64,000 nt of DNA from Streptomyces sp. NBC_01314. GTDB taxonomy: Bacteria > Actinomycetota > Actinomycetes > Streptomycetales > Streptomycetaceae. The translations under genes were made by a program, and so were the position numbers. Of this stretch, positions 46,998 to 51,197 are shown piece by piece. Within the stretch, counting starts at the first letter, position 1. The number at the start of each line of letters is the position of its first letter. The notes beneath the pieces were generated by a model. It saw nothing but the letters and a program-made list of their open reading frames with translations, did not search any database and was not told the DNA's origin. The stretch covers positions 9,176,001 to 9,240,000 of the forward strand of contig NZ_CP108394.1 in the NCBI RefSeq assembly GCF_041435215.1, in the 5' to 3' direction.

Positions 46998-48641
46998 ATG
47001 CCCGCATCACCCAGCACCGCCCGAGCCATCAACGACCGGCTCGCCCTGCGGCTGCTGCAGCAGGAAGGGCCGCTGACGGCAGGGCAGTTGAAGCAGCTCA
47101 CCGGTCTGTCCCGGCCCACGGTCGCCGACCTCGTGGAGCGCCTCACCGCCGCCGGGCTGATCGAGATCGCGGGGGAGTCGGGGGAGCAGCGGCGCGGGCC
47201 CAACGCCCGTCTCTACGGCATCGTGGCGGACCGTGCGCATCTCGCCGCGCTCGATGTGCGCACCGAGGGCGTCACGGTCGTCATCGCCGACCTGGTCGGT
47301 ACGGAACTGGCGCGGGCGTCCGTCCCGATCGCGGACGACGCCGGCACGGGGCCCGCGGTGGAGCAGGCGGTCACCCTGGTGGAGCGTGCCGCGAAGGAGG
47401 CGGGCGCCGACCGGCTGCACACGGTGGTGATCGGCGCCCCCGGTCTGATCGACCCGGCCACGGGCGAACTCCGCGACTCCAGCGGCCTCCCCGAGTGGCA
47501 CCGCCGCCTGGTCGCCGCCCTCGGTGAACGGCTTCCCGCCCGCGTCCTCGTCGAGAACGAGACCAACCTCGCCGCCCTCGCCGAACAGCGGGACGGCGCC
47601 GCCCGCGACCGCGACACCTTCGTCCTCCTCTGGCTCGGCCTCGGCACCGGCGCCGCCGTCGTCCTCGACGGCCACCTCCGCCGGGGCGCCTCCGGCGGCA
47701 CGGGCGAGATCGGCTTCCTCCCGGTACCCGGCACGACCACCATCCCCTCGGCCACCGACTGCGAGGGCGGCTTCCACTCCCTGGGCGGCGCGGCGGCGGT
47801 GGCGGCACTGGCCACCGCACACGGCGTCAAGGCCGCGGCGGCGCCGAACGAGCCGTACGCGGCGACGTTGGTACGGGCGGCGGTCGCCGGACTCCCGGCG
47901 AGCGACACGGTCGCGTCGTCGATCACCCCTGGCCTTCCGGCGCGAGTACCCGGCCGTTCGGGGGAGGCGGGCGCGAGCGGTTCGGTGGTGGGGGCGACGA
48001 GTCTGGTGGTGGCGGCTCGGGGGCGTTCCGCGGGTACCGCGAGCCCGTCGGTCGGGGGCGAAGGACGTTCGGTCGGGCCTGCGGGGCCGGCGGTGGAGGC
48101 CGAGGGGTGGCCCGCTGGAACCGCGAGCCTGTCGGCGGAGAGCAGGGGCGGTCCAGCGGGTGCCGGGAACCCGTCTGTGGAGGCCGAACCCCCTTCGGGC
48201 GAGGCCACCACCTTCCCGTCCGACGACCTCCGCCGTCCGGCGGTCGCGCCGGTGGTTGGTGTGCCCCCCTCGTCCACGACGCAGGGCACCTCGGCGGACC
48301 AGGCACCCCCTTCGCCGCCCGGCCTCCGCCCCCCGGCGGCCCCCGACTCTTCGGCCGACCCCCGCGCCCGTTTTCTCGGCGCCCTCGCCGACCGCCTTGC
48401 TCTCGGCGTAGCCTCCGTCGTCGCTGTGCTCGACCCCGGGTGTGTGGTGCTCGGTGGTGAGGTCGGGCAGGCCGGTGGGCAGGAGCTTGCCGTCAGGGTG
48501 GGGGAGCGGCTGGCGGCCATGTCGCCGTTGCCGACCGAGGTGCGGCCCAGTGGCCTCGGCGGGGCCGCCGTGCTGCGCGGCGCGTTGCTTATGGCCCGGG
48601 AGGCGGCTCAGGACGAGTTGTTCGCACCGCCCGCGCGATAG
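46998..48641 (+). CDS. ROK family transcriptional regulator with repeat-bearing insertion
   Basis: The 547-residue protein has an N-terminal winged HTH (RLALRLLQQEGPLTAGQLKQ, then LTGLSRPTVADLVERL) and a ROK domain. The latter includes GAPGLIDPATG, VENETNLAALAEQ and GLGTGAAVVLDG. The zinc motif CxCGxxGC is degenerate (DCEGGFHSLGG) and the kinase phosphate loop is not conserved, so it is a regulator, not a kinase. Between residues about 300 and 460 the ROK fold is interrupted by a Gly/Ala/Ser/Pro-rich insertion with four 14-residue repeats. The fold resumes with FLGALADRLALGVASVVAVL. It is about 150 residues longer than usual. Confidence 0.9.
   Translation: MPASPSTARAINDRLALRLLQQEGPLTAGQLKQLTGLSRPTVADLVERLTAAGLIEIAGESGEQRRGPNARLYGIVADRAHLAALDVRTEGVTVVIADLVGTELARASVPIADDAGTGPAVEQAVTLVERAAKEAGADRLHTVVIGAPGLIDPATGELRDSSGLPEWHRRLVAALGERLPARVLVENETNLAALAEQRDGAARDRDTFVLLWLGLGTGAAVVLDGHLRRGASGGTGEIGFLPVPGTTTIPSATDCEGGFHSLGGAAAVAALATAHGVKAAAAPNEPYAATLVRAAVAGLPASDTVASSITPGLPARVPGRSGEAGASGSVVGATSLVVAARGRSAGTASPSVGGEGRSVGPAGPAVEAEGWPAGTASLSAESRGGPAGAGNPSVEAEPPSGEATTFPSDDLRRPAVAPVVGVPPSSTTQGTSADQAPPSPPGLRPPAAPDSSADPRARFLGALADRLALGVASVVAVLDPGCVVLGGEVGQAGGQELAVRVGERLAAMSPLPTEVRPSGLGGAAVLRGALLMAREAAQDELFAPPAR
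48021..48188 (+). repeat. four 42-bp tandem repeats inside the ROK gene
   Basis: They encode GRSAGTASPSVGGE, GRSVGPAGPAVEAE, GWPAGTASLSAESR and GGPAGAGNPSVEAE. The unit length is a multiple of three, so copy-number change keeps the frame. Sequence divergence between units suggests that the array is old. Confidence 0.75.
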
Positions 48642-48847: not shown

Positions 48848-49606
48848 TCATCCCTTCCCCCGGCTCCCACCGAACCGGTCCGCCAAGTGCTCCCCGAACG
48901 TCCCCTTGCCCACGGCCCGCCCCGGCGTGAGATGGCCGCCGGCGCGAAAGGCCCGGTAGGCCTTGCCGAACAGCGGGACGTTCAGCAGGGGGCGGCGACG
49001 GCCGGTGGCCGCCAGGTAGGCGCGGGCCAGGTGGGGGAAGGTCAGGATCTCGGGGCCTCCCAGGTCGTCGACGCGTCCGGCGGGGGCGCCCACGGCCAGG
49101 GCCGCCAGGCGTTCGGCGACCTCGGCGACGGCGACGGGCTGGTCGCTCACCCCGGCGGGGAGCATCATGACCGGCGGCTTGGAAAGGCCCTGGAAGAGCA
49201 TCACCAGCAGGTCATGGAACTGGGTCGCGCGCAGGGTCGTCCAGCCCAGCCCCGACCCCTCGACCAGCCGCTCGACGGCCAGCTTGGACCGGTAGTAGCC
49301 GAACGGCACCCGGTCCACGCCGACGATCGAGATGTAGACCAGGTGCCGCACCCCGGCCCGCCGCGCCGCCGCGATCAGGTTCTCCGCCGCCTTCTCGTCG
49401 CCCCCGCGCGGCGACGTCGCGCAGTGCACGATCGTGTCCACCCCCGCCACGGCCGCGTCCAGCCCGCTCCCGCCCGCGACGAGATCGACGGCGTACGGCT
49501 GCGCGTGCCGGCTGAGCACCCGCACCTCGTGCCCGTCCGCCCGCAGCCGCTCCGTGACGGGCCGGCCGAGGACACCCGTGCCGCCGGTCACCAGGATCGT
49601 GGTCAT
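48848..49606 (-). CDS. NmrA-like NAD(P)-binding oxidoreductase/epimerase
   Basis: The 252-residue atypical short-chain dehydrogenase starts MTTILVTGGTGVLGRPVTER, with the TGGTGVLG dinucleotide loop. YISIVGVDRVPFGYYRSK contains the YYRSK active-site-like segment. AAGGGA lies 9 bases before the chosen ATG. Genes of this type often accompany ECF41 sigma factors as COE partners (carboxymuconolactone decarboxylase, oxidoreductase or epimerase). A decayed ECF41-like stub lies directly upstream on the same strand, and an ECF41-type promoter motif precedes the gene. Confidence 0.88.
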   Translation of the reverse strand: MTTILVTGGTGVLGRPVTERLRADGHEVRVLSRHAQPYAVDLVAGGSGLDAAVAGVDTIVHCATSPRGGDEKAAENLIAAARRAGVRHLVYISIVGVDRVPFGYYRSKLAVERLVEGSGLGWTTLRATQFHDLLVMLFQGLSKPPVMMLPAGVSDQPVAVAEVAERLAALAVGAPAGRVDDLGGPEILTFPHLARAYLAATGRRRPLLNVPLFGKAYRAFRAGGHLTPGRAVGKGTFGEHLADRFGGSRGKG

Positions 49607-49665
49607 GCTGTCCATTCCCTTCGTACGCCGGACGCTCCAGGCTGGAAACGTCCTACGGCAGCTAC

Positions 49666-49692
49666 GACGGGACAGCCCCCGCGGATGTGACC
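49666..49692 (-). promoter_or_regulatory. ECF41-type promoter
   Basis: On the minus strand, GGTCACA and CGTC are separated by 16 bp. The published ECF41 consensus is TGTCACA, a 16-17 bp spacer and CGTC, so the site differs by one base. It lies 60 bp upstream of the oxidoreductase start in the correct orientation. Confidence 0.6.
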
Positions 49693-49800
49693 ACCGAGGC
49701 GACTCGGTGGTCCCGAGGAGGGTCCCGGGGCGACTCGTCCCGGTGCGACGGAAGGCGACCCGATCGGGCGCGCGGTCATCCGCCAAGTCGGATCGCGCGA

Positions 49801-50000
49801 TCACGTCCCGGTCGGCTGCCGTCCCACGAACTCCAGCTTGTCCGGGTTCACCACGACCCGCACGTCCGACACGGCACCGCCCCGGAGCGCGAAGGACTCG
49901 GTGCCCACAAGCGCGTCCCCGGCCCCGGTGAGCAGTGCGGGGAGCCGCTGACCTCGGCCACGGCGAAGTCCGAGCCGCCCGCCAATCGTTCCGCATGAGG
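49801..50000 (-). pseudogene. C-terminal remnant of an ECF41-type sigma factor
   Basis: The minus strand encodes PALLTGAGDALVGTES then VSDVRVVVNPDKLEFVGRQ before a stop. NPDKL is a hallmark of the SnoaL-like C-terminal extension of ECF41 sigma factors. The preceding residues GSDFAVAEVSGSP continue the similarity only in a different frame. One base therefore seems to be lost near 49938-49942. No sigma region 2 or 4 can be found upstream. The gene is thus both truncated and frameshifted. The right boundary is approximate. Confidence 0.6.
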
Positions 50001-50278
50001 GGGACCCGGCGACGGGGCAAGGGCCGTCGTCACCGCCGCCGGGCCGTTCGAGGCGGGTAACCGCGACCGCAGACTTTAAAAGGACTAGACCAAGCCGGTC
50101 AATGGGTCCAACCCCTTCGAGTGGAGTCGCGGTCGCGGAAGTTGACCCATGGTCAGTGATAGCCGAAATCCGTCGGCCCCCGCTGAGAAGTCCAGTGACA
50201 CGGCCTGTGAGCCACCCCACAGTGCTCACCCGCATGGGTGTCGACCGGGCGTGGCACACTGGCCATGTACCAGAAGCA
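50001..50278. other. intergenic region before the FMN riboswitch
   Basis: This holds the junction of the sigma-factor stub and the promoter of the riboflavin operon. A short TTTAAAAGG tract at about 50075 is the only AT-rich stretch. No gene or repeat was recognised. Confidence 0.4.
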
Positions 50279-50405
50279 GCGCACTCCGGGGTCGGTGAAA
50301 GTCCGAACCGGCGGTTACAGTCCGCGACCCGGTCGCTTCCAGCGGCCGGTTGACCAGGTGAAATTCCTGGACCGACGGTTAAAGTCCGGATGGGAGGCAG
50401 TGCGC
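50279..50405 (+). ncRNA. FMN riboswitch (RFN element)
   Basis: The closing helix GCGCACT / AGTGCGC encloses the conserved RFN segments GGGGTCGGTGAAAGTCCGAA, GGCGGTTACAGTCCGC, CCAGGTGAAATTCCTGG, ACGGTTAAAGTCCGGATGGG and AGGCAG, in the correct order. FMN binding would shut off ribE-ribM-ribAB-ribH. Confidence 0.96.
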
Positions 50406-50442
50406 GGCGGGCGGGCATTCGTGCGCGCCGCCGTCTGTTTTT
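50405..50442 (+). terminator. terminator of the FMN riboswitch
   Basis: CGGCGG and CCGCCG form a stem followed by TCTGTTTTT, one of the few T-tracts in the window. It starts at the last base of the aptamer closing helix, so FMN could control transcription termination 120 bp before ribE. Confidence 0.65.
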
Positions 50443-50564: not shown

Positions 50565-51197
50565 GTGTTCACCGGAATCGTCGAAGAGCTGGGTGAGGTC
50601 ACCGCCGTCGAGAAGCTCGGCGACTCCTCCCGCTTCCGTCTGCGCGGCCCCGTTGTCACACAGGGCGCGCGCCACGGCGACTCCATCGCCGTCAACGGCG
50701 TCTGTCTCACGGTCGTGGAGCACGAGGACGACTGGTTCACCGCCGACGTCATGGCGGAGAGCCTGGATCGCTCCAGCCTCGGCGCCCTCACCGCCGGCTC
50801 CCGCGTCAACCTCGAACGCCCCATGGCCGTCGGCGACCGCCTCGGCGGGCACATCGTGCAGGGGCACGTCGACGGCACGGGCGAAGTCATCGAGCGCAAG
50901 CCGTCCGAGAACTGGGAGATCGTCAGGATCTCGCTCCCGGCGGACCTCACGCGGTACGTCGTCGAGAAGGGCTCCATCACCGTCGACGGCATCAGCCTGA
51001 CCGTCGTCGAGGCCGGCCCCGACTACTTCACCGTGAGCCTCATCCCGACCACCCTCGACCTGACCACGCTCGGCCGCAAGCAGCCCGGCGACCCGGTCAA
51101 CCTCGAGGTCGACGTCATCGCCAAGTACGTCGAGCGGCTGCTGGGCGCACGGGGAGCGGACACCCAGGGGATCGGTATTCCGGGGGCGTCGCAGTGA
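50565..51197 (+). CDS. ribE: riboflavin synthase
   Basis: Dismutates two lumazines to riboflavin. The 210-residue protein has two lumazine-binding barrels. The first begins with the family start [11 protein letters not shown], with [10 protein letters not shown] and [10 protein letters not shown]. The second contains [16 protein letters not shown] precedes the GTG start by 9 bases. An upstream extension in this frame would run through the riboswitch and is rejected. Its stop overlaps the ribM GTG. Confidence 0.96.

Follow-up and report, generated by a model that had tools for sequence, protein, structure and literature searches.

The locus described here lies in a 64,000-nucleotide stretch of DNA from Streptomyces sp. 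NBC_01314 (the window; 9,176,001-9,240,000 of its contig, in a genome of 11.3 Mb in two contigs). Its minus strand carries a gene for an oxidoreductase, which we call ox, a putative promoter of the ECF41 type and the remains of a sigma factor gene, beyond which a ribE-like gene lies divergently on the plus strand. Counted from the first nucleotide of the window, the features are as follows (L266 is the locus of Streptomyces europaeiscabiei 96-14; G251 and G277 belong to the window's clade):

48848..49606, minus strand: ox, an intact open frame of 252 residues for an NmrA-like NAD(P)-binding oxidoreductase, the COE gene (PF13460, E 2.3e-19; NmrA, E 3.1e-12).
49666..49669, minus strand: -10 element of the putative ox promoter, CGTC; the same place holds GGTC in sigma-intact relatives and CGTC in L266 and G251.
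49686..49692, minus strand: -35 element of that promoter, GGTCACA; TGTCACA in most relatives and in the ECF41 consensus given in the accessible part of PMC3426412.
49703..49794, minus strand: a segment of about 90 bp that separates the stub from the promoter; L266, G251 and G277 have no counterpart of it and only 21, 11 and 9 bp at this place.
49801..49940 (upper end approximate), minus strand: last part of the ECF41 sigma relic, with the NPDKL motif and stop in one frame, recognised by the tail profile and by the ends of NF007214 and TIGR02957.
49941..49992 (limits approximate), minus strand: preceding residues of the relic in another frame; the frame change is common to L266, and the DNA matches L266.
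49992..49994, minus strand: approximate deletion junction, where the blastn blocks of the window meet (49994/49992), those of L266 ending at 1904 and resuming at 2683.
50003..50045, minus strand: GC-rich hairpin that includes GGCCCTTGCC, lying upstream of where the sigma gene once stood and recurring in relatives.
50277..50407, plus strand: FMN riboswitch (RF00050, 98.9 bits) ahead of the divergent ribE, marking the syntenic position.
50565..51197, plus strand: ribE-like reading frame, which we take to encode riboflavin synthase; as a syntenic neighbour, its orthologue lies upstream of ox on the opposite strand in 80 of 119 loci.

Three of the surroundings deserve a brief description. The segment of about 90 bp at 49703-49794 has no second copy that we could find in its own genome, and an origin from a mobile element was rejected on account of this single copy. 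The hairpin at 50003-50045 (fold z -2.33) was recovered with a simple pattern at 97 of the 149 loci, which come from the best of 245 genomes: at 38 of 62 sigma-intact and 59 of 87 sigma-less ones. In the window's own genome, a short pattern gave three matches, one of them here, and an Rfam search at this position gave no family at its cut-off. At 46998-48641 on the plus strand there is a 547-residue reading frame, presumably ROK-like, with a repeat-like stretch rich in proline, glycine and serine in its second half (approximately 47950-48390).

A first-pass annotation of the window had described a truncated, frameshifted stub with an NPDKL motif, on the same strand as the NmrA-like oxidoreductase, as a decayed ECF41 sigma factor gene, and both the identity and the shared minus strand were borne out. 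The relic piece, which ends in NPDKLEFVGRQPTGT (49801 to approximately 49940, minus strand), lies upstream of ox and is preceded by a few residues of the same family in another frame. Compared with a profile built from the C-terminal 60 residues of each of the 62 intact orthologous sigma factors, the NPDKL-bearing frame gave an E-value of 7.9e-18; with the same profile, none of the reverse-strand controls of the 87 sigma-less regions reached E<1. The piece also matches the ends of SigJ (NF007214, 257-288 of 293; E 0.01) and SigX4 (TIGR02957, 247-279 of 281; E 0.013). The alignment covers the tail alone, with neither region 2 nor region 4 of sigma-70; only the last part of the C-terminal SnoaL-like extension is kept, and a Sigma70_r2 search of the genome gave no match at this locus. 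The motif itself, as NPxKL, occurs in 58 of the 62 intact tails. We take TIGR02957, the SigX4 model, to correspond to ECF41. SigJ is counted as ECF41 in the accessible part of PMC8999054. As judged from its alignments, then, the stub is a real C-terminal end of an ECF41-type (SigJ/SigX4) sigma factor gene, and the locus carries a relic of such a sigma factor rather than a working member. That the NPDKL motif of the stub might match by chance, or that the stub might come from some unrelated protein of NTF2 fold, we regard as vanishingly improbable and ruled out by the tail-profile alignment: as an isolated 45-residue piece it obtains E of about 0.01 at best from the curated libraries, and from Pfam nothing at E≤1, but it aligns to the tail of the orthologous sigma factor and runs colinear both with the intact genes found at this site and with the pseudogene that L266 has at full length.

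What an intact gene at this site looks like can be seen in G033, whose ox is 80% identical to that of the window and is accompanied by a sigma factor gene on the same strand; the two matched stretches lie 120 bp apart. Its product has region 2 (PF04542, E 1.4e-13), region 4 (PF08281, E 1.6e-11) and a SnoaL_2 domain (E 3.3e-7), and passes both TIGR02957 (358.3 bits, cut-off 323.25) and NF007214 (334.8, cut-off 271). The closest solved structure is that of SigJ of Mycobacterium tuberculosis (PDB 5xe7; E 3.5e-50 over residues 6-285), which, as an intact sigma factor unlike the relic in the window, serves for comparison only.

By ox, the nearest named relatives are S. europaeiscabiei 96-14 (95% in the best segment), S. 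stelliscabiei (93%) and S. tailanensis (90%), in a comparison from which this genome's own records, and those closest to it, may be missing. S. europaeiscabiei and S. stelliscabiei are potato-scab species; we know of no link between ox and this trait. In S. europaeiscabiei the whole sigma factor gene is still recognisable upstream of ox as a pseudogene: a stop interrupts its region-2 part, and the frame changes twice, the second change being common to the window, where it lies near 49940 (reading frames compared by eye). Because this frameshift is shared with a separately sequenced species, it is no homopolymer or sequencing error, and that reading was rejected. By blastn, the window lacks about 778 bp of the L266 sequence and matches it to either side of this gap. 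Inactivation, marked by the shared frame change in a pseudogene that L266 still has at full length, thus preceded the deletion. Decay goes on elsewhere in this clade: two loci (G251 and G277) have shorter tails and have kept the promoter, two others (G271 and G373) lack the promoter, and in G319, which was not counted, the upstream region is there and ox gave no match. Within the clade, dN/dS of ox ranges from 0.24 to 0.43.

Across the genus, 392 genomes were searched, ox was found at E≤1e-55 in 245, and of the 150 best of these 245 all but one were analyzed (149 loci), G328, in which ox lies near a contig end, being left out. We called a locus intact if a sigma factor match of more than 250 bits ended within 900 bp of ox. 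By this definition the sigma factor gene just upstream of ox is intact in 62 of the best 149 of 245 loci (two of the 62, G359 and G133, with an internal stop), a remnant in 5 and absent within reach in 82; it has thus been lost in 87, for each of which at least 2600 bp of upstream sequence was covered. The suggestion that the locus is a sigma/COE module that lost its sigma gene is thereby supported, relatives having an intact ECF41-type sigma gene at exactly this place. Recognisable sigma tails were detected at E<1e-3 in 9 of the 87 sigma-less regions, the window included. Where ribE is within reach on the opposite strand (39 of the 119 loci lack it there), it lies 1442-2038 bp from ox in the 35 sigma-intact loci and 557-1024 bp in the 45 others.

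On a DNA tree of ox, the sigma state changes 29 times, with 16 independent pairs on well-supported branches; a count allowing only losses gives 38 lost clades. Gain of the sigma factor gene in place of loss was rejected, as the fitted rate of regain is 0 in reversible models and relics lie at the site. As to relocation, 85 genomes have an orthologue of at least 300 bits, and none of these is among the 87 sigma-less ones, a threshold at which weaker orthologues could escape. The median dN/dS of ox is 0.335 for intact and 0.375 for lost pairs. Comparison of these loci shows, by the substitution ratios of their coding sequences, that ox has been kept under purifying selection while the sigma factor gene was repeatedly lost.

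The arrangement resembles the ECF41 sigma/COE module of Bacillus licheniformis (ecf41-ydfG) and Rhodobacter sphaeroides (Wecke et al. 2012, PMC3426412), in which, according to the accessible part of that paper, an ECF sigma factor gene with a large C-terminal extension adjoins a COE gene, that is, one for a carboxymuconolactone decarboxylase, oxidoreductase or epimerase (in the window, an NmrA/NAD(P)-binding oxidoreductase), and the promoter reads TGTCACA-n16-CGTC. The same part of the paper proposes that ECF41 sigma factors control essentially one neighbouring target. It differs from the case presented here in that the sigma factor of the window is a relic and in that the intact Streptomyces relatives read GGTC; orphan sigma factors lacking a COE gene are described in that part, and COE genes bereft of their sigma factor go unmentioned in it. 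A further ECF sigma factor with a SnoaL_2 extension in Streptomyces, SigG1 of S. tsukubaensis, belongs to a different group, ECF56 (accessible part of PMC7730460).

Against this consensus, the window has GGTCACA, 16 bp and CGTC, and hence the single mismatch that the first-pass annotation had noted; use of the site is predicted. The annotation had further held that target and promoter remain. The target does, as ox is intact, and the promoter is recognisable, but the mismatch falls on the near-invariant first T of the -35 element, which 58 of the 60 intact promoters have, as do 45 of the 47 sigma-less ones. As the window has G where the sister locus L266 keeps T, its promoter may be weak.

Among the relatives, a promoter was called if at most one mismatch to TGTCACA was combined with NGT(C/T) 16-17 bp further on, upstream of ox. 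Of the 62 intact loci, 60 have such a promoter, as do 47 of the 87 sigma-less ones, the other 40 of the 87 lacking it (best 149 of 245); in relatives, sites occur at nearly the same distance from ox as in the window. In sigma-intact loci the promoter reads TGTCACA-N16/17-GGTC/T. The first base of the -10 element is almost always G in the presence of the sigma factor gene (n=60: G 57, C 1, A 1, T 1) and is divided between G and C in its absence (n=47: G 23, C 21, T 2, A 1; Fisher p 4e-8, uncorrected). This association survives correction for descent. In a test of correlated evolution on the ox tree (107 loci), loss and the first -10 base gave a likelihood ratio of 24.1 (p 6e-6), and on a ribE tree (68 loci) p was 1e-4; 19 other promoter traits, put to the same test, gave a likelihood ratio of at most 8.3 (p 0.015), which fails correction for 20 tests. 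By parsimony, G was replaced 13 times on lost branches, in 11 of these cases by C, and 4 times on intact branches (p 0.005); one of these four changes leads to a pair of loci of which one is lost and the other intact. The independent pairs on well-supported branches point in the same direction, with means of 4.8 versus 0.1, but their number is too small for significance (median p 0.06). A hold-out set of 58 further named loci, with ox less than 98.5% identical to the first set, though related to it and hence not independent, repeated the pattern: G in 22 of 25 intact promoters and, among 22 sigma-less ones, 13 with C and 9 with G (p 0.0016), with 11 sigma-less loci lacking such a promoter. One G in the hold-out comes from L288, whose label as lost is unsure, as it has just 412 bp of upstream sequence. 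CGTC together with an intact sigma factor gene was found once in each set, in 1 of 60 (G205) and 1 of 25 (L281). As far as promoter sequences can tell, loss of the sigma factor is thus shown by comparison to be statistically linked to a non-G, mostly C, first -10 base.

We envisage the following course of events. The ancestor would have had a divergent ribE with its FMN riboswitch, an ECF41-type sigma factor gene and, on the strand of the latter, its target ox, with the promoter TGTCACA-N16/17-GGTC between the two, read, as we infer, by the cognate sigma factor. In the lineage of the window, a stop and frameshifts would first have inactivated the sigma factor gene, the state kept by S. europaeiscabiei, and about 778 bp would have been deleted afterwards, leaving the tail. 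The promoter would still be used by another sigma factor, most likely an ECF41 paralogue reading CGTC, the first -10 base having been re-tuned after the loss in what would amount to a promoter hand-over. That the promoter shifts towards another sigma factor, probably an ECF41 paralogue, once the cognate one is gone strikes us, on the promoter comparison, as evenly balanced between true and false. The fuller version is put forward more tentatively, at somewhat less than even confidence: the sigma factor of this locus would be an ECF41 specificity variant reading a GGTC -10 element, lost in many lineages, after which the orphaned promoter would be re-tuned to CGTC and the sigma factor of a different ECF41 module would take ox over, making the locus a repeated natural experiment in hand-over with its intermediates visible (full-length pseudogene, stub and no trace; GGTC, CGTC and promoter gone).

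A serious rival, which we consider quite possible while leaning against it, is that constraint was merely released: the promoter would be unused after the loss, its G free to change, mostly to C in a GC-rich genome, and many promoters would be deleted. This would agree with the 40 of 87 sigma-less loci that lack a recognisable ECF41 promoter, with L267 (S. stelliscabiei), L268, G271 and G373, in which ox is present and no such promoter is found, and with C already making up 65% of the non-G spacer bases in lost loci. It also agrees with the fitted models, in which the main difference is that a fast return to G is lost together with the sigma factor, not that change to C is faster. On the ox tree the rates away from G are 2.35 in the intact and 6.22 in the lost state and those back to G 43.7 and 1.4; on the ribE tree they are 22.2 and 22.3 away, and 403 and 15 back. 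Plain release of constraint would give the same result in the models and would account for part of the pattern. Against this reading, 47 of the 48 lost loci with a -35 element keep NGT(C/T) at the right distance, and the first and last bases of the -35 element are as conserved in sigma-less promoters (45 and 41 of 47) as in intact ones (58 and 53 of 60). Moreover, 21 of the 24 non-G bases in lost loci are C (11 of 13 by parsimony events), a modest excess over the spacer share (p 0.013, counted by tips with no correction for descent), and only 3 of the 40 promoter-less loci have a relic with two mismatches (0.29 expected), so that few promoters have been caught half-decayed.

An inverse order, in which the change to CGTC came first, let another sigma factor drive ox and so rendered the cognate one dispensable before its loss, we judge unlikely. 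Loci with CGTC and an intact sigma factor gene do exist (G205 and L281); over both sets together, however, CGTC is the form of just 2 of the 85 promoters at intact loci, and G is still present in 23 of the 47 sigma-less promoters, which indicates that loss often occurred without a change of base.

If the promoter is indeed handed over, the question arises which sigma factor receives it. At the loci of other SigX4-like sigma factors in relatives (L039-L058, n=20), TGTCAC is followed by CGTC in 12, GGTC in 1 and TGTC in 1, with none in 6; given this prevalence of CGTC, the change at ox runs towards what other ECF41 sigma factors would be expected to read. Two paralogue families of the CGTC type were considered as recipients, and co-occurrence supported neither: among genomes with sigma-less promoters, type A is present in 6 of 21 with C and 5 of 23 with G (p 0.73), and type B in 9 of 21 and 17 of 23, respectively (p 0.06, in the wrong direction), and the genome of the window has neither type. 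The proposed check for other ECF41 sigma factors in this genome turned up six further SigX4-like genes that score 200 bits or more, of which three exceed the curated cut-off. None of the six loci has the exact consensus, two having TGTCACG together with TGTC or GGTT. Of these, the one at 605182 comes nearest in region 2.4, the -10-reading helix, and is a candidate only; compared with the majority sequence of the intact sigma factors, it has 84% identity in region 2.4, 53% in a region-4 stretch and 52% overall. Genome-wide, TGTCACR-N15-17-CGTC has 32 sites, compared with 14 for a reversed control. The SigX4-like genes at 721566 (L260) and 605182 (L261) each adjoin a long frame that, by eye, resembles a FAD-dependent oxidoreductase.

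What is new here is the recurrent loss of the sigma factor throughout the genus and its link to the first -10 base. A literature search of titles and the beginnings of abstracts, with most subscription papers outside its reach, yielded among the matches listed no account of the loss of an ECF41 sigma factor with retention of its target, nor of such a shift in a promoter. A series of repeated losses with a surviving target allows one to ask what becomes of a one-target circuit once its switch disappears, and bears on whether paralogous sigma factors capture a promoter by a single base change. The prediction is that the cognate sigma factor prefers G at the first -10 position and that some paralogue prefers C.

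Some of the sigma-less loci that lack the ECF41 promoter have a different sequence in front of ox. Boxes of the form CAGxCT or CACGCT occur just before the ATG in 16 of these 40 loci, in none of the 47 sigma-less loci with a promoter and in 1 of the 62 intact loci. Fourteen of the 16 (G004, G015, G122, G166, G293 and nine more) form one clade, the others being G182 and G019, so that about three events would account for them; the boxes of the 16 read CAGxCT, CACGCT or CAGGAT. A box just before the ATG is as in leaderless housekeeping-type promoters.
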